The notes beneath the pieces were generated by a model that did not search any database, was not told where the DNA came from, and saw only the letters and a program-made list of their open reading frames with translations. DNA of 37,299 bases, from positions 1 to 37,299 of the IMG/VR virus record IMGVR_UViG_3300046474_000174; one strand, 5' to 3'. The position numbers and the translations under genes are program-made. Positions within the stretch are counted from its first letter, which is position 1; each line of letters starts with the position of its first letter. Shown here piece by piece: positions 3,675-30,391 of this stretch. Source of the stretch: a virus.

Positions 3675-4108
3675 GCGGTTTCTCCTTGGGGTTGGGGTAC
3701 TTCGTCGGGGGAAAACTGGAAGTCGGCGCGCGCGTTGCGCTGCATGATCCAGATGGGGTACGGCAGCATGTGGATGCCGTGGTCCTTGCCGGTGTGATGC
3801 TTCTTGCACAGGACCAGCATGTTGTATTCGCTGTCGATGAAGTCTTCGGCCTTCGTGAACGTCGACCACGGGAAGTTGGGGTGCAGCGCGCGCATGCGGT
3901 CCCAATCGATTCCTTCGGCGTCGGCCCACTCGGCGTGGAAGTGGTGCACCTCGCGCTGGTCCTTGCTACCGCAGATCCAGCACGGGGTATCAAGAACTTT
4001 CACCAGGTGGTGCTTCGTGCGCGCGAACAGCGACGACTCGGTGCGCGGCTCGTGGTCGGGGTAGTAGATGTCGACCGAGAGGGTCAGCTTTTGCTCGTGT
4101 TCGTTCAT
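3671..4108 (-). CDS. HNH-type endonuclease-like protein, 145 aa
   Basis: ATG at 4108, coupled to the endolysin stop by ATGA. A zinc-finger HNH arrangement is visible: CWIC (Cys43, Cys46), EVHHFH (residues 53-58), Asn96 in SEYNMLVLC, then CKKHH (Cys101, His104, His105) and KDHGIH. Cys pairs plus the central His-His and a later Asn/His fit the beta-beta-alpha-metal fold. HNH proteins are common in phages with headful or cos packaging and often sit beside terminases. Here it is in the lysis cassette, so a role in packaging or host DNA cleavage is uncertain. Confidence 0.75.
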   Translation of the reverse strand: MNEHEQKLTLSVDIYYPDHEPRTESSLFARTKHHLVKVLDTPCWICGSKDQREVHHFHAEWADAEGIDWDRMRALHPNFPWSTFTKAEDFIDSEYNMLVLCKKHHTGKDHGIHMLPYPIWIMQRNARADFQFSPDEVPQPQGETA

Positions 4109-25081: not shown

Positions 25082-25127
25082 TTGATTCAATGCTAACACA
25101 TCGGAGCTTGCAATATGGCAAGGATGA

Positions 25128-25496
25128 TTACCGGTCGGCCGTCGCAGCCGCGGCCTCGATCGCACGCTGCGCCTGCCGGAACAGGTTGACGAAGACGGTC
25201 GCCGGCCGGTGCGCGATCGCCATCTTGCGGCACACGACGTTCGGGTCGGCTTGGCGGATGTAGCACCAGTACAGCAGCATGCGGTGCTTGGTCTCGAGCT
25301 CGCGCATGCCGCGCTCGATCAGGGCCGCGTCCGCCTCATCCAGCTTGCGGCGCTCGGGCACGGGCATCTCGCCTTCCGCCTCGCGGCGCAGCTGGTCACA
25401 GAACGCGCCGGTGGGGCTGATGCCGACGCGGGTGGTGTCACGGAAGACCCTCGCCCAGTTCTCCAGGCGCGAGCCGATGTCGCGGCGTTCGGTCAA
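25128..25496 (-). CDS. Candidate late-gene regulator (antiterminator Q-like / HTH protein), 122 aa
   Basis: The upstream gene ends with TGA overlapping a TTG (TTGA), so I take the TTG at 25496 as the start: TERRDIGSRLENWARVFRDT. The C-terminal half is a helical, sigma-region-4-like HTH arrangement (ALIERGMRELETKHRMLLYW, CYIRQADPNVVCRKMAIAHR, ATVFVNLFRQAQRAI). This kind of protein, placed between RusA and terminase, is often annotated as antitermination protein Q or a phage late regulator. The following late operon contains many terminators. The assignment is by position and fold style, not by a decisive motif. Confidence 0.55.
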   Translation of the reverse strand: MTERRDIGSRLENWARVFRDTTRVGISPTGAFCDQLRREAEGEMPVPERRKLDEADAALIERGMRELETKHRMLLYWCYIRQADPNVVCRKMAIAHRPATVFVNLFRQAQRAIEAAAATADR

Positions 25497-25669
25497 GCTA
25501 CGTCCTCCCGCAGCTGGCCGTTCGACGCGACCACACGCAGCCGGGCGCCGCGCACCTTCCGGGCCGCGAGCAAGATCATGGCCGCGACGCGGAAGCCGCC
25601 GGCAAACCCGCCGATGAAGCCGACGGCGAAGCAGGCGGCGCAAGTGAGGGCGGATTGCTCGGGCGTCAT
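25493..25669 (-). CDS. Small membrane protein, 58 aa
   Basis: ATG at 25669, ATGA-coupled to the RusA gene, and its stop overlaps the next start (TTGA). One clear membrane span at about 8-35 (LTCAACFAVGFIGGFAGGF plus VAAMILLAA) is followed by a basic cytoplasmic tail (RKVRGARLRVVASNGQLRE). No family recognised. Both couplings make it a real gene in the middle operon. Confidence 0.65.
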   Translation of the reverse strand: MTPEQSALTCAACFAVGFIGGFAGGFRVAAMILLAARKVRGARLRVVASNGQLREDVA

Positions 25670-26097
25670 GCGGCCTCTCCCGCGACCTCGATCACATGCA
25701 CCACCGCGCTCGGCGTCTCGCTGTAGCGCTTCTCGATCATGATGCGCACCACCTGGGCGTCGTCGGCCCACACGATGCCATTGCAGCCGTCCTTGATCCC
25801 CTTGAGCACGTTGTCGGCGTCGGGCTTCTTGGTGGCGCAGATCGTGCCGGCGACGGCGGCCGCGCGGCGCTTGTTCGACCAGCTGGCCGGCACTTGCAGG
25901 TTCAGCGTCACCGACAGTGCAACCGGGCGCGCCGTCGGCTCGGTGCCGCGCATGGCGGTGCTGGCCGCAAGCTTCACCAGGTTCTCGTAGCTGGCCGTCT
26001 TGGCCGGCGTGTACGCCACGACGTGCGCACCGCGGCGGGCGAACTTGGGGCGGCCCTTCGCTACAGGCTGGCCGGGGATGGTGAAGGTGGTCATCAT
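25666..26097 (-). CDS. rusA: RusA-family Holliday junction resolvase, 143 aa
   Basis: Cleaves four-way DNA junctions made during recombination and replication, clearing branches before packaging. The N-terminal strand GQPVAKGRPKFAR is the RusA start pattern. The active-site Asp residues lie in KKPDADNVLKGIKDG (Asp93, Asp95) and IVWADDAQV (Asp112, Asp113), with a conserved Lys later in IEKRYSE. Length (120-145 aa) fits the family. Two adjacent ATGs (26097 and 26094) are possible starts. It is coupled to the small membrane protein gene. Confidence 0.92.
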   Translation of the reverse strand: MMTTFTIPGQPVAKGRPKFARRGAHVVAYTPAKTASYENLVKLAASTAMRGTEPTARPVALSVTLNLQVPASWSNKRRAAAVAGTICATKKPDADNVLKGIKDGCNGIVWADDAQVVRIMIEKRYSETPSAVVHVIEVAGEAA

Positions 26098-26153
26098 GGA
26101 TCAGGTTCTCCCGTGTCGTTGTTGTGCGCCCGGGCTGGCCGGGCGGGTGGTGG

Positions 26154-26810
26154 TTATTCGACGATCAGCCAGTCCTCGGCCAGGGCATCGCTGCCGCTGG
26201 GCGCCCAGGTGCTCACGGTGTCATCGGCGCCCTTGAGCGCGAGGTAGGCGTTGTAGGGGACCATGCCGCCTTCGCCTAAGAAGGCTTTCGCGGCGCCCGT
26301 CTGCGCCGGGTAGCTGTTGGCCGGCACCAGGTAGGCGAACATGCCCTTGCCATTCCAGCCGGCGCGCGCCACGCGCTGGCCGGTCTTCAGCGCGGTCAGT
26401 GCGGTACCGAAGGTCAGGCCGGTGGGCGACGAATGCGCAGTCACGGTGCCGGCCGGCTCGTAGGTCGCCGCGAAGATGTCGGGTTTGCACGCGTAGTGCT
26501 CGCCCTGCACGCCGGTGATGATCCAGTCACCCGGGCACACGATGTGTCCGCCTTCCAGCGTCTCGATCCAACCGTGGTTATGCATGATGTCGCCGCAGTG
26601 CTTGCATGCCTGATAGCCGTCCATTTCCGGCGTACGGTAGCGACGCACGATAGACCCCTCCCAGTCGTTTTCACGGCGATGCACTGGGCTGAATTCACGC
26701 GGCTGGCCGTTCTCGAAGCCATGCACGACGGTCGCATAGTCCTCCGGATGGTCGCCGTTCTTGAACCACTGCGTTGCCTCGATGACGACGGGCTTTTTGC
26801 GAAATTCCAT
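26154..26810 (-). CDS. Two-domain protein with C-terminal Tad2-like (DUF2829) anti-defence domain, 218 aa
   Basis: Residues 1-118 form a small phage domain of unknown role: FRKKPVVIEATQWFKNGD, a possible zinc site CKHCG with later His residues, and LEGGHIVCPGDWIITGVQGE then KPDIFAATYEPA. Residues 131-218 match the DUF2829/Tad2 pattern: LTFGTALTALKTGQRVARAG, RAGWNGKGMF, and the ending STWAPSGSDALAEDWLIVE. Tad2 proteins are known to bind and sequester signalling nucleotides of Thoeris (and some CBASS) defence. Gene context is the leftward early operon, where anti-defence genes are commonly expressed soon after infection. The domain call is strong; activity is inferred. Confidence 0.85.
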   Translation of the reverse strand: MEFRKKPVVIEATQWFKNGDHPEDYATVVHGFENGQPREFSPVHRRENDWEGSIVRRYRTPEMDGYQACKHCGDIMHNHGWIETLEGGHIVCPGDWIITGVQGEHYACKPDIFAATYEPAGTVTAHSSPTGLTFGTALTALKTGQRVARAGWNGKGMFAYLVPANSYPAQTGAAKAFLGEGGMVPYNAYLALKGADDTVSTWAPSGSDALAEDWLIVE

Positions 26811-26819
26811 GTCTGCCTT

Positions 26820-27086
26820 TCAGGTTGTTGTCGTCCCCGCTTTTGCGGGAACCGTTGGTGCGCTCGCGCGCGAAATGGTCTCTCTACCCCTGCGCTGCTC
26901 CGGTGGCATCTGTGCTTTCCGGGTCTCCCACGCTCCCTGCTCGTTGAACAGGACGCAGCGCGGGTCGGTCGAGTGCACGGGCTTGTCGAAGCCCTCGCAG
27001 TGGCCTGGGCCGTCCTCGTTGCGCCGCTGGGATGCGGTCGGGATGAAGCGGGCACAGATGCGGCAGGGCAGCGGCTCGCGGTTCAT
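26820..27086 (-). CDS. Small zinc-finger-like protein, 88 aa
   Basis: ATG at 27086, coupled by ATGA to the DUF1376 gene. Cys/His residues are spaced as CRIC, GHCEGF, DKPVH and DPRCVLF, a likely single zinc site. Residues after about 55 are low complexity. The last codons (VPAKAGTTTT) are encoded by a short palindromic repeat (CCCGC-TTTT-GCGGG), suggesting that the reading frame has been extended by a repeat insertion. Function unknown. Confidence 0.65.
   Translation of the reverse strand: MNREPLPCRICARFIPTASQRRNEDGPGHCEGFDKPVHSTDPRCVLFNEQGAWETRKAQMPPEQRRGRETISRASAPTVPAKAGTTTT
26831..26853. repeat. REP-like palindrome, copy 1
   Basis: GTCCCCGC-TTTT-GCGGGAACC (within 26831-26853) resembles the palindrome at 33683-33702 and the short chromosomal REP-type repeats of many proteobacteria. 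It lies at the 3' end of the gene at 26820-27086. Confidence 0.5.
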
Positions 27087-28120
27087 GCGGCTCGGCCTCC
27101 GTTGCGCTGGGCCTGCTCGAACGCGGTGACGCGGGCTTGCCACTCGTCGTAGCTTTCGTCCGTGCCCTTCGGGTCGAGGCCCTGGGGCTTGCGTGGCGGG
27201 GCCGGTGGGACAGGTGCGGCGATTGCTGCCGCTGGTGCGCTCTGCTTCTGCAGGACGGTCTGCACGGCCTTGTCGAGGTAGACGAGCCCGATGGCCTCGC
27301 CTGGCTTGAACTGCCGTGCTCTGGCGATCGCTGCGGTCAGCACGTCCTTGGTGACGCGAGGTTCGGCAGCCCAGGCAAGCACGATGGCGTCGCCCGGCGT
27401 TGCGTCGATGCCGCCGTCTCGCAGCATGGTCACGATGGCGGTGACCCGCTTCGACTCCCGGGGGTGGTCGTCGTCGTCCGATTGCGGGCCGGCACCAACT
27501 TCGGTTGAGGCTTGAGACGACGATGAAGATTTAGAAGTTAACTGTCCCTGTCCCTCTCCCTGTCCCTTGGAGTGGTTTTCACCAGTGACATCGCTCGTTT
27601 GTCCTCGGGACATCTTGGATTTGTCGCTAGGGACAGGTAGCGGCTGTCCCACGGGACAACCAGCAGAAAGCCACGCATCGAATTCGGGAAACTGGATGCT
27701 TGTCCCGTGGCGCTCGTTGTGCTTCTTGATGCGCGCGCATTCGGTTTTCAGGCGCTGTCGCAGCTTCGCGGTCCAGGCTTCGTTGGCCTTTTCGGCGACG
27801 ACAGCGTGATACAACCGGCCATCGCTGCACTTCACCCAGCCACGCATGGCTCCGTCGCGAACCTTCAGCCATTCCTTCACGACGCGGCCGTAGCCGGCGT
27901 ACTGGGCCAGGACCTTGTCGTCATCGGGCAGGCTGGCGGCCGGGACCTGGTGCCAGGACGCGCACCACAGCAGCACGGCGCAGCGGAATTCGTCGGCCTC
28001 GGCTGTCACGGCCAGGTCGCTGTCGCGCAGGCGCACGACGTCGAGCGGCATGAAGGCGAAGTCGCGCAGGTCGCAGTCGGGCGGAGTGAGCGGCGCGGGC
28101 AGGTTGGACATGGCGTCCAT
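27083..28120 (-). CDS. DUF1376-family replication-associated protein, 345 aa
   Basis: The start at 28120 forms a TGATG overlap with the upstream stop. Residues 22-115 match DUF1376 (FMPLDVVRLRDSDL, AEADEFRCAVLLWCASWHQV, KVRDGAMRGWVKCSDGRLYH), a family related to phage replication proteins that are probably initiators or primosome-loading partners. The middle (about 160-235) is low-complexity Ser/Gly/Gln, and the C-terminal part has a helical domain (VTAIVTMLRDGGIDATPGD). The DNA for the linker contains many TGTCCC/GGGACA motifs, possibly the replication origin. No helicase or primase gene is adjacent, so host enzymes are probably used. Confidence 0.75.
   Translation of the reverse strand: MDAMSNLPAPLTPPDCDLRDFAFMPLDVVRLRDSDLAVTAEADEFRCAVLLWCASWHQVPAASLPDDDKVLAQYAGYGRVVKEWLKVRDGAMRGWVKCSDGRLYHAVVAEKANEAWTAKLRQRLKTECARIKKHNERHGTSIQFPEFDAWLSAGCPVGQPLPVPSDKSKMSRGQTSDVTGENHSKGQGEGQGQLTSKSSSSSQASTEVGAGPQSDDDDHPRESKRVTAIVTMLRDGGIDATPGDAIVLAWAAEPRVTKDVLTAAIARARQFKPGEAIGLVYLDKAVQTVLQKQSAPAAAIAAPVPPAPPRKPQGLDPKGTDESYDEWQARVTAFEQAQRNGGRAA
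27543..27706. repeat. Cluster of TGTCCC/GGGACA motifs, candidate origin iterons
   Basis: TGTCCC occurs at 27543, 27549, 27561, 27645 and 27701; its complement GGGACA occurs at 27607, 27630 and 27653. The pair at 27645-27658 forms TGTCCC-AC-GGGACA. Eight copies in 164 bp is far above chance. They lie in the low-complexity linker of the replication protein gene, as lambda ori lies inside gene O. Confidence 0.55.
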
Positions 28121-28557
28121 CAGTAGTACCCCACGTCCATGTGTTCGGCCGCGTAGGCGCTGATTATCTCGGCCATTTCTGCCTTGAAGTCGAAGTCGAC
28201 AAGCGGGACAGGAATACCGGCCTGGCGGATCGCGGCCAACATGCAGGCAGGGCAACCGTCCGAGGCTTCACGCAATTTCGGCGTGGCGGCAGCGATCGCC
28301 TGGGTGAATTCCTCGTATTCCTTCGTCCAATTGCAGTTGGCATCGAATTCAACAGGAACATTCGACGGCAAGATCGCCACCAGGGCGCGCAGCCCTTCGG
28401 CATCCGGCCCGTTGCCACCATGGATCAGCCGGCAGGCGCGGCAGGCGCGCGCCGGGTTCATCGTGCAATGGCGTTCGTGCTTGGCCATGGCGTGCGCCTG
28501 CAGACCGGCGCGGTTGCAGAAGTCGCACCAGTGGCGCTTGACGGTTTTCGTTCTCAT
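28120..28557 (-). CDS. Zinc-finger-type phage protein, 145 aa
   Basis: ATG at 28557, ATGA-coupled to the upstream 71-aa gene. Residues 8-34 show a C2H2-like site (HWCDFCNRAGLQAHAMAKHE, then RHC), followed by ARACRACRLIHGG, so two zinc sites are likely. The middle (VAILPSNVPVEFDANCNWTK) and a second Cys pair (SDGCPACMLAAIRQAGIP) precede an acidic C-terminus. Nucleic-acid binding is likely. It resembles uncharacterised early proteins of Burkholderiales phages. Confidence 0.7.
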   Translation of the reverse strand: MRTKTVKRHWCDFCNRAGLQAHAMAKHERHCTMNPARACRACRLIHGGNGPDAEGLRALVAILPSNVPVEFDANCNWTKEYEEFTQAIAAATPKLREASDGCPACMLAAIRQAGIPVPLVDFDFKAEMAEIISAYAAEHMDVGYY

Positions 28558-28769
28558 GGCGGATTTGCTCCAGCCAGTTCCAGCGTGGGCTTGACGACCG
28601 CGCGCGCGAAGACGACGGCCTGGCGATCACGCCAGCCTTTCTGCCAGTCCGCGATGGCCGGCGCGCCCGGGTTCATGTGGTGATCATCGATGGCGCGGCC
28701 CTGGTCGAACGCGTCGGCGCCGCGCTGGCGCATGATCTCGGGGGTAGCTGCTTTGATCGAGAGGTCCAC
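28554..28769 (-). CDS. RMF/CrpP-like small protein, 71 aa
   Basis: GTG at 28769 shares its G with the upstream TAG. The pattern RGADAFDQGRAIDDHHMNPG then IADWQKGWRDRQ follows the RMF/CrpP style (G-x-x-A-x-x-x-G-R, a Pro/Asn turn, then W-x-x-G-W). RMF dimerises ribosomes in stationary phase. Phage relatives of this fold are of unknown role. The similarity is by motif only, and the C-terminal 20 residues do not belong to it. Confidence 0.6.
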   Translation of the reverse strand: MDLSIKAATPEIMRQRGADAFDQGRAIDDHHMNPGAPAIADWQKGWRDRQAVVFARAVVKPTLELAGANPP

Positions 28770-28945
28770 TATTCCTTCCCCCCTTCATCGGTCGCAGTGC
28801 GCAGCTGCTGCCGCACGAGCTTTTGTGCATCGGCGGCGCGGCTGTCGGGCCCGGCCTTCTCGATGCAGCGCACGACGAAGTTCCAGATGACCACACGGCG
28901 GTCGGGCGAGAACTTCGGCGGCGGATTCTGTGTTTGTTCGTTCAT
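28769..28945 (-). CDS. Small hypothetical protein, 58 aa
   Basis: ATG at 28945 with GAGGA upstream; the TAG at 28771-28769 overlaps the next GTG start. The product starts MNEQTQNPPPKFSPDRRVVI and continues WNFVVRCIEKAGPDSRAADA with an amphipathic helix, then an acidic end (ATDEGGKE). No motif recognised. The ribosome site and the coupled stop make it a likely real gene in the leftward early operon. Confidence 0.65.
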   Translation of the reverse strand: MNEQTQNPPPKFSPDRRVVIWNFVVRCIEKAGPDSRAADAQKLVRQQLRTATDEGGKE

Positions 28946-28966
28946 TCAATCCTCGGGGTGAAACGG

Positions 28967-29206
28967 TCAGGAACGCATGTATGCAGCCGGGCGCACGCTG
29001 CGAGCCGGGGCAAACTTGGCCTGAAATGGGACCAGACTGGGCCTAGCTCCCGGGCGGCCCTCTGGCTTAACATTTCCGCGAGGCAGGCAGCAGTCGCGGA
29101 TGTGCGTGCTGACCGACTTCCTCACGGCCTTGGCGTTGGCGACGATCGCCAGGAAGTCGTCGACGGTCACGTGCGATTTCAGGGTGATGCTTCGGTTTTC
29201 TTTCAT
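28967..29206 (-). CDS. Small ribbon-helix-helix-like protein, 79 aa
   Basis: ATG at 29206 with a near-perfect AAGGAG ribosome site. The first 40 residues (SITLKSHVTVDDFLAIVANA, then KAVRKSVSTHIRDCCL) read as a beta strand followed by two helices in the pattern of Arc/MobC-type ribbon-helix-helix proteins. The rest is an Arg/Pro-rich tail. As the second gene after cro it could be an early regulator. The fold call is tentative. Confidence 0.6.
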   Translation of the reverse strand: MKENRSITLKSHVTVDDFLAIVANAKAVRKSVSTHIRDCCLPRGNVKPEGRPGARPSLVPFQAKFAPARSVRPAAYMRS

Positions 29207-29307
29207 GGTGCTTCTCCTTGACGGTGGTTCTCGGTGGGGTATTTCATCGGGGGTACTTCGGTGCAATCGCTCAATTGCAACTGCCTGTGCGCAACTTTCG
29301 AGGCGCG

Positions 29308-29333
29308 AAAAAGCCGCAGGGGTTACTGCGGCT
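29308..29333 (-). terminator. Intrinsic terminator overlapping the end of cro
   Basis: AGCCGCAG (29312-29319) pairs with CTGCGGCT (29326-29333); read leftwards it is followed by TTTTTCG. The hairpin loop includes the cro stop codon. It would stop leftward early transcription unless antitermination or read-through occurs, like lambda tR1. Confidence 0.8.
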
Positions 29334-29565
29334 GGGATTCGGGATGGTTGGCGAGCTCGGGCCAGATGCGTTGCCAGTCGTCGGGGAACATCTCGCGGCG
29401 CGTGACCAAGCCGCCAGTCGCGGTCTCGATCGCCGCGCCGTAGATGACCGGGATCGGACGTGTTCCATCGGCCCAGCGGCTTACGTCTGGGGCATGCGCG
29501 CCTATAGCCTTGGCCAGTGCTGCTTGTCGGCCGCGCTCTTGGGAGAGGTAAGTTTTGATGTCCAT
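29323..29565 (-). CDS. cro: Cro/YdaS-type repressor, 80 aa
   Basis: ATG at 29565, divergent from the CI-like gene across the operator region. The N-terminal 45 residues form a helix-turn-helix typical of Cro/YdaS (MDIKTYLSQERGRQAALAKA, then GAHAPDVSRWADGTRPI), with a C-terminal extension (IWPELANHPESQPQ). The leftward promoter leaves only about one or two bases before the ATG, so the mRNA may be nearly leaderless. It should bind the same TAGCG-N3-CGCTA operators and promote the lytic programme. Confidence 0.8.
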   Translation of the reverse strand: MDIKTYLSQERGRQAALAKAIGAHAPDVSRWADGTRPIPVIYGAAIETATGGLVTRREMFPDDWQRIWPELANHPESQPQ

Positions 29566-29573
29566 GAGGACAG

Positions 29574-29638
29574 AATATAGCGATTCGCTAAACGTCGTCA
29601 ATAGCGAATCGCATATTTCAAAGTTTAGCGCTATGCTA
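29574..29638. promoter_or_regulatory. Right-type operator/promoter cluster (three operators, leftward early promoter)
   Basis: Three 13-bp operators: TAGCGATTCGCTA (29578-29590), TAGCGAATCGCAT (29602-29614) and TAGCGCTATGCTA (29626-29638), with centres exactly 24 bp apart. Leftward promoter: -35 TTGACG (29601-29596), 16-bp spacer, -10 TATATT (29579-29574), overlapped by the first operator. The third operator overlaps the likely -10 of the rightward repressor promoter (TATGCT, 29632-29637). The first site is perfectly symmetric; the other two are weaker. Confidence 0.85.
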
Positions 29639-29650
29639 TTTAATGCTCAG

Positions 29651-30391
29651 ATGCAAACAAATGACGAAGTCCGCCGGCAGAACCTCTTGATCGCGATCGA
29701 ACGCGCAGGCTCGGCCGCAAAGCTTGCGGAAGCGGCCAAGACGTCCCCCGCCTACCTGAGCCAGATCAAGAACCGTACTCCCGACAGCAAATCGGGTACG
29801 CCCAAGACCATGGGTGACGATATGGCGCGCCGTATTGAGGCCGCAATCGGCGAGCAGCCCGGATGGATGGACGTCGCCCGGGAGTCACAAGAGGCATCGA
29901 GCGTGACAGCGGACATCCTCCACCTGGTGCCGGGCGCCAAGCGTGTGCACGCGGCCGATCAAGATGATCCGAGCATGACTCAGATCAAGAAGGTAAAGAT
30001 CAAGGTCCAGGCTGGCATCACGGGCTTCCAGGTCGAGCCAGAACACTACGATGGCGAAACCCAGGGCGTGCCCACCAGGTGGATGCTGAGGGAAGGACTA
30101 AGTCGCGATGCATTGATCTCGACGACCGTGCGCGGCGAGAGCATGGAGCCGGCTTTGTACGACGGTGACGTGATCGTCGTGAATACGCGAGATACAAAAT
30201 TAGTCGACGGCGCGGTCTATGTTGTGAATTACGAGGGTGAGGCCGTGGTCAAGCGGTTGATTCGCGATGCCGGGCAGTGGTGGCTATCGTCTGATAATGC
30301 GGATCAACGGAAATATCACAAGAAGCAATGCAAAGGAGCCGAGTGCATTGTAATTGGCAAGGTCGTGCGGAAAGAAAGCACGCATATATAA
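29651..30391 (+). CDS. cI: CI-like repressor with S24 autoprotease domain, 246 aa
   Basis: Maintains lysogeny by repressing both early promoters. Residues 5-65 form an HTH DNA-binding domain (AAKLAEAAKTSPAYLSQIKN). The S24 peptidase domain starts at about 112, with the Ala121-Gly122 cleavage pair in VQAGITG, catalytic Ser164 in RGESMEPALYDGDVIVVN and Lys201 in GEAVVKRL. All self-cleavage residues are present, so SOS/RecA induction is expected. The start at 29651 is preferred; an in-frame ATG at 29633 lies inside an operator. It is followed at 32 bp by two lipoprotein genes that may be co-transcribed in lysogens. Confidence 0.92.
   Translation: MQTNDEVRRQNLLIAIERAGSAAKLAEAAKTSPAYLSQIKNRTPDSKSGTPKTMGDDMARRIEAAIGEQPGWMDVARESQEASSVTADILHLVPGAKRVHAADQDDPSMTQIKKVKIKVQAGITGFQVEPEHYDGETQGVPTRWMLREGLSRDALISTTVRGESMEPALYDGDVIVVNTRDTKLVDGAVYVVNYEGEAVVKRLIRDAGQWWLSSDNADQRKYHKKQCKGAECIVIGKVVRKESTHI

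Follow-up and report, generated by a model that had tools for sequence, protein, structure and literature searches.

The window, the whole 37,299-nucleotide stretch analysed here (virus record IMGVR_UViG_3300046474_000174 in IMG/VR, which also classed its ends), carries a gene whose product joins a C-terminal Tad2 domain to a separate front domain. In a related phage, nearly the same Tad2 stands in frame behind a different front module. The new result is this modularity: one Tad2 core is found preceded by various front domains that are not related to each other. Judged by its sequence, the protein would be of a known kind, a Tad2 sponge, in a modular form with an exchangeable accessory module at the front. 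Our preferred reading, to which we assign a probability of roughly 0.6, is an early-region counter-defence protein combining a messenger-binding Tad2 domain with an exchangeable PGDYG-like accessory, probably holding zinc. The Tad2 domain would most likely bind and sequester an ADP-ribose messenger made by a TIR enzyme; the N-terminal module, most likely an exchangeable accessory, may tune how the sponge assembles, how stable it is or where it is placed, or may add a second binding function.

Gene layout, early-region setting and the Tad2 domain

The open frame lies on the minus strand; it starts with ATG at 26810 and reaches its stop at 26154, giving 218 codons with no internal stop (Table 1). 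PHROGs splits the product into the same two domains: residues 1–121 form a family of their own, phrog_419 (E 3e-31), and the Tad2 part matches phrog_872/1048; NCBIfam returned no match for the 218-aa protein. The original prediction described a true fusion in a single ORF with an N-terminal domain widespread in phages. Both points are borne out, the former by the same pairing in seven other contigs (loci L002, L003, L070, L163, L203, L209 and L210), the latter by the phrog_419 match together with matches in the phage collection. The whole-protein AlphaFold2 model has a pTM of 0.48, so it does not fix the relative placement of the two domains.

Table 1. Features of the Tad2 fusion gene and its surroundings, in window coordinates
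Feature	Coordinates	Strand	Basis or remark
Whole gene: PGDYG-like N-terminal domain, linker and Tad2	26154..26810	-	218 aa; open frame, Pfam/PHROG
N-terminal domain, residues 1-120	26451..26810	-	phrog_419; PGDYG PF14083 below threshold; AlphaFold2
Predicted metal site C69, C72, H79, C92	26535..26606	-	covariation across 106 aligned N-domains
Linker, residues 121-130	26421..26450	-	residues 123-128 with pLDDT < 50
Tad2 domain, residues 131-218	26157..26420	-	PF11195, ModTad2, Foldseek, VIA-align
Segment replaced by an unrelated N-terminal domain in L021	26432..26807	-	flanking blastn blocks
Possible ribosome-binding site GAAAGG before the ATG	26816..26821	-	read off the sequence
RusA Holliday-junction resolvase, next gene downstream	25666..26097	-	PF05866 E 2e-36, phrog_140
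Small ORF upstream	26820..27143	-	no family match; 26820-27101 aligns to L021
Replication protein	27083-28255
YdaS/Cro-like gene	29323-29601		divergent from CI-like repressor
CI-like repressor	29555-30391		divergent

The leftward early region contains, in order, the replication protein, the small ORF, the Tad2 fusion, RusA, a functionally unassigned ORF and the terminase genes; the expected position beside RusA was found, with the resolvase directly downstream. The phage is apparently temperate. Its YdaS-like gene (PF15943) occupies a Cro-like position, divergent from the CI-like repressor. Over 25100–29700, the best-covering deposited phage is Burkholderia phage Magia, which covers 17%.

At the C-terminus, the Tad2 signature anticipated earlier is present as RAGWNGKGMF (residues 149–158) and SDALAEDW (residues 207–214), and the proposed HMM check against PF11195 gave a match over residues 133–217 with 79 bits against a cut-off of 25 (E 4e-22). 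The predicted structure likewise resembles solved Tad2 proteins: Foldseek pairs it with 9eib (TMt 0.83, E 1e-10), and VIA-align gives Z 13.0 and rmsd 2.5 over 87 aligned residues. The nearest solved relative is ModTad2 from Myroides (phmmer E 1e-25, 60% identity over the aligned stretch); in the fold ranking it is followed by SptTad2, tied in Z, then by SPO1 Tad2 and AcrIIA7/HgmTad2. Seven of the eight Tad2 columns conserved at 75% or more are matched by the window protein, and at the eighth the window has T201, where ModTad2 likewise has threonine. W152, the tryptophan of GWNGK, is a residue that we take to be part of the Tad2 ligand pocket. A FastTree phylogeny of few columns (92), from which L070 is absent because its profile match is too short, places the window protein and ModTad2 in one supported group of 35 rows (support 98), with 75 of the 175 inner branches left open.

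According to its entry title, PDB 9eib is ModTad2 crystallised with His-ADPR, and PMC13299392 states that ModTad2 inhibits type II Thoeris by binding this compound. This co-crystal of the nearest solved relative makes His-ADPR, the type II Thoeris messenger, our best guess for what the window protein would sequester, and its Tad2 domain may be described, at the level of a best guess from this comparison, as a putative His-ADPR sponge.

The front domain and its predicted metal site

Three types of front domain need to be distinguished: the a-type, to which the window N-domain belongs; the c-type, which is PGDYG-like and lacks the CCHC insert; and the b-type, whose L020 copy matches phrog_2293. 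Modelled alone from 106 aligned sequences (AlphaFold2), residues 1–121 of the window protein reach a mean pLDDT of 95.0 and a pTM of 0.83. The order of elements is a strand at 11–14, then an insert with strands at 29–33 and 36–40 and a helix at 42–47; after the insert come four strands (80–84, 87–91, 96–99 and 105–108) and a helix at 110–116.

C69, C72, H79 and C92 are all present in 60 of the 106 aligned N-domains, 38 lack both Cys and His throughout the five positions compared, and 8 are partial; of the 60 sequences possessing all four residues, 49 have a further His at the position of H77. This covariation argues strongly for one predicted metal site characteristic of a long subfamily, and the N-terminal PGDYG-like domain probably holds zinc. 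The zinc site suggested earlier is upheld as a candidate, its positions covarying, but its ligands would be C69, C72, H79 and C92 and not the CKHC motif alone.

Structure searches with the front domain were less informative than those with Tad2. Against the PDB, Foldseek found nothing at E <= 0.001 (best E 0.6, a Tudor domain), and the best VIA-align score was Z 2.3 for the decoration protein of phage L (rmsd 3.9 over 61 aligned residues), which does not in itself make the fold new. Among the viral models of BFVD there are 32 matches at E <= 0.001, seven of them annotated as PGDYG protein (E 1.7e-5 to 7.4e-4). The Pfam PGDYG family (PF14083) aligns to residues 92–128 with 17.3 bits, under its cut-off of 27. 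Profile comparison with hhalign paired the a-type with the PGDYG profile at a probability of 29–38% over 17 columns only; PGDYG against the c-type gave 99.6%, a value that is not independent, as the PGDYG profile absorbed c-type rows in iteration. The a-type N-domain gave nothing against the b-type, Acb4 and Tad2 profiles, and nothing directly against the c-type (probability 0.1), while one individual PGDYG-like sequence, L274, gave weak matches to both a-type and c-type (probabilities 8.8 and 17.5). Taken as suggestive, these matches hint that the a-type may be akin to the c/PGDYG type. PGDYG-like domains are frequent in phages, and no solved structure of one was found here.

Exchange of the front domain and the partners of Tad2

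The clearest view of the exchange comes from L021 (IMGVR_UViG_3300046794_000174), a collinear relative of the window phage. Two blocks flank the front domain in blastn: window 26808–27101, which includes the start codon (86.7%), and 25670–26431, which starts in RusA, covering most of that gene, and continues through Tad2 into the end of the linker (92.7%). Between them (26432–26807) blastn found no match. Where the window has these 376 nt, L021 has 298 nt (3695–3992) encoding an in-frame b-type domain, with the lower breakpoint inside the linker at about codon 127. Further out, collinearity between window 25490 and 30187 consists of patchy blocks of 69.5% to 90.6%. The two related phages form one natural pair distinguished at this gene almost only by the front domain: the reading frame is kept, and the Tad2 that follows hardly changes.

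The combination of b-type and Tad2 recurs in L018 and L020, whose Tad2 DNA is 92.0% and 93.6% identical to that of the window, with patchier similarity around it than in L021. A third, c-type, front domain precedes Tad2 in L029 and L030 (88.3% and 86.4% DNA identity to the window). Codon differences from the window Tad2, given as synonymous/non-synonymous, are 13/3 for L021, 15/2 for L020, 18/2 for L018, 17/8 for L029 and 20/8 for L030; by this measure Tad2 is evidently under purifying selection behind different partners. This bears on the idea that the front domain keeps Tad2 from forming its tetramer, so that sponge activity is lost in the fusion. Apart from the low pTM of the whole-protein model, which would fit such a block, the evidence argues against it: selection appears to maintain the domain, the conserved Tad2 columns are kept and fusions are common. 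We regard a lost activity as very improbable.

Tad2 had been described as a domain that usually stands alone. Among the matches listed, 120 loci yielded 114 unique motif-drawn Tad2 ORFs, and 64 of them have fewer than 40 aa in front, a length measured from the earliest start codon that follows a stop, which may overstate the coding part of an extension. That description accordingly stands in part, but at least 39 of the 114 have a recognisable partner. By type, 30 of the listed ORFs carry a c-type domain, two Acb4, one an a-type and 17 another extension; by eye or cluster, the last class includes two b-type (L116, L089), two PGDYG-like (L097, L194) and two Tad2-like (L150, L195) extensions, and several of those remaining look non-coding.

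Across the whole collection of loci, unique ORFs comprised 61 c-type+Tad2, 8 a-type+Tad2, 4 Acb4+Tad2, 1 a-type+Acb4 and 1 c-type+Acb4 fusions, next to 192 a-type ORFs without a Tad2 or Acb4 partner and 127 Tad2 ORFs without these partners, in counts that are biased because resemblance to the window protein was what brought many of the loci in. Two divergent fusions lie outside these counts, one in L320 that the profiles missed and one in L528, a contig added afterwards. One reference set comprises 120 of 129 entries; it leaves out eight Tad2 rows and L319, which duplicates contig L003. In the c-type (61) and a-type (8) fusions with Tad2, the PGDYG-like domain comes first. In the phage collection, 844 records match, and only one of them spans 80% or more of the window protein. 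A PF11195 survey of 369 genomes of one class gave three with a match, including the centre genome, which is too sparse for a fusion rate. A text search of the literature, whose sources did not cover the main Tad2 papers, showed no visible report of these fusions.

A second sponge family also takes part. Acb4 (PF13876) and Tad2 (PF11195) are joined in one ORF in L086:1029-1670, L218:7725-8267 and L223:7689-8273 according to Pfam, in L174 (minus strand, by profile) and in L529:1504-2058; the last is a named example, ORF47 of Pasteurella phage Pm86, matching both PF13876 and PF11195. Some phages therefore combine two sponge families in one protein. Acidovorax phage AP1 has a c-type+Tad2 ORF followed directly by a PF13876 gene, and Latilactobacillus phage TMW 1.2272 P1 encodes a 182-aa Tad2 ORF with 33.6% identity along the entire query. 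A c- or PGDYG-type domain stands before Acb4 in L320, L405 and the second ORF of L029, and in L302 the a-type domain lies after Acb4, not before it.

Other arrangements were observed on the side. L307:6173-7297 fuses an a-type domain to NADAR (PF08719, E 3e-29). In L320, a short c-type domain with Acb4 (804-1214) is adjacent to an ORF (1251-1811) in which an a-type domain is joined to a divergent stretch that looks Tad2-like by eye. DUF4406 precedes Tad2 in L232:7695-8285 (at the Pfam cut-off, 22 bits) and L242:549-1139 (by clustering). L150, L195 and L260 form one cluster with a divergent second Tad2-like domain before Tad2, sub-threshold in Pfam for L150. A further shuffled C-terminal module, HQQRV-like, recognised by eye and ending in RIAxF, recurs in L203, L227, L146, L080 and L037, where the domain ahead of it is Tad2, Acb4, a-type or c-type. 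Finally, in L253:7964-8539 from Roseospira marina, a-type and Tad2 lie in adjacent, different frames, as overlapping genes or a broken fusion.

The variety of partners raises the question of whether the fusion means anything. Under neutral mosaicism, the early region shuffles short frames, linker fusions persist as harmless products and the N-domain has an unrelated job. Consistent with this are the diversity of Tad2 partners (PGDYG-like c and a, b-type, Acb4, DUF4406 and a second Tad2-like domain) and the scatter of a-type labels on the Tad2 tree, where seven a-type rows require seven label changes against a shuffled mean of 6.9. At least five of these changes are forced by supported branches, and for our preferred reading they speak for a recurrent a-type+Tad2 fusion. 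Three observations argue the other way: one partner type, the c-type, dominates the listed ORFs; both sponge families, although unrelated, have PGDYG-like domains attached, a pattern not obviously favoured by random joining; and the swap is modular and in frame. Even with stand-alone N-domain copies that show no sponge enrichment nearby (see below), we consider neutral shuffling rather unlikely.

Possible roles of the front domain and comparison with known systems

The suggestion that the N-terminal domain itself acts against host defence was compared with the neighbourhoods of three locus sets, each among the matches listed: 119 a-anchored loci (1,040 kb; 119 of 120 stretches, all but L045, which was already among the loci), 120 RusA-anchored loci (1,122 kb) and 120 Tad2-anchored loci. 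The 119 a-anchored loci contain no separate Tad2 and one separate Acb4 ORF, and the 120 RusA-anchored controls contain three and two, respectively. Counted by locus, Tad2 or Acb4 occurs near the N-domain in 1/119 against at most 5/120 (p 0.21, uncorrected, three tests), which speaks against an anti-defence reading. Conversely, separate a-type copies occur in 5/120 Tad2-anchored and 0/120 RusA-anchored loci (Fisher p 0.06, uncorrected), a non-significant hint in its favour. Acb4 lies near Tad2 in 10/120 against 2/120 loci (p 0.03, uncorrected, among the matches listed). Of the 201 unique a-type ORFs, 192 lack a sponge partner (Tad2 is the partner in 8, Acb4 in 1), and neighbourhoods of stand-alone copies are not enriched in sponges. 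The anti-defence claim for this domain is so far not supported, and its joining to Tad2 may have no particular functional meaning.

A dual inhibitor would require the N-domain to be an anti-defence factor of its own. It might be another sponge, help by degrading the messenger or inhibit a different system, and a single gene would then counter two defences. The fusions are what favours this link: Tad2 with Acb4, another known sponge; the a-type family with Tad2, Acb4 (L302) and NADAR (L307); and c/PGDYG types before both Tad2 and Acb4. The neighbourhood counts weigh against it, since N-domain loci are no richer in sponges than RusA loci, and no catalytic or pocket signature was recognised in the N-domain. 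Nine a-type fusions, hand-picked from 31 with at least 40 aa behind the domain and 36 with at least 50 aa in front, were mostly sub-threshold in Pfam: six matched only PGDYG at this level, with no named partner, and one only a peptidase. We judge such a dual inhibitor unlikely.

More broadly, we speculate that PGDYG-like domains, the putative zinc-holding one of the window protein among them, could be a general partner module of phage sponges, binding a second messenger or a messenger-making enzyme and exchanged in frame beside a Tad2 or Acb4 core. We hold this to be doubtful; if true, PGDYG exchange beside a constant core would change which defences one protein blocks. Under our preferred reading of a sponge with an accessory module, the proteins described here are natural constructs for asking how modular sponges are, what PGDYG-like domains do and whether counter-defence is widened by domain exchange. 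For specialists, the interest lies in a clean natural swap, a metal-site subfamily and double-sponge fusions.

To our knowledge, Tad2 sponges have so far been studied mostly as single domains. ModTad2 (Myroides odoratus prophage; PDB 9eib, 8v3e) agrees with the window protein in Tad2 sequence, fold and tree group, but it stands alone at about 88 aa, whereas the window protein has an additional 120-residue domain in front. SPO1 Tad2 (8smf), AcrIIA7/HgmTad2 (8kbi, 8kbj) and SptTad2 (8wjd) share the same PF11195 fold with the window (VIA-align Z 11.7 to 13.0) at 37–46% identity; SPO1 Tad2 and AcrIIA7 fall outside its 35-row tree group, and SptTad2 is absent from the tree. By entry title, the solved ligands of these proteins are gcADPR (SPO1), cADPR (Hgm, AcrIIA7) and cGG (Spt, AcrIIA7).

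Among fusions, the Acb4+Tad2 protein of Pm86 (ORF47) resembles the window protein in that a single ORF encodes a different phage domain followed by Tad2. Its front half belongs to a characterised family of cyclic-dinucleotide sponges, as PMC11722364 describes: PF13876 is the Acb4 family, all eight of the tested homologues bound 3'3'-cGAMP, and extensions of unknown use were noted in homologues. The window N-domain differs in this respect, as the protein has no PF13876 match at E up to 1. PHROG 872 shares the layout of the window protein, with a small PGDYG-like domain that also precedes Tad2 (L072 matches it over residues 1–162); its front domain is of the c-type without the CCHC insert, unlike the a-type module of the window protein.
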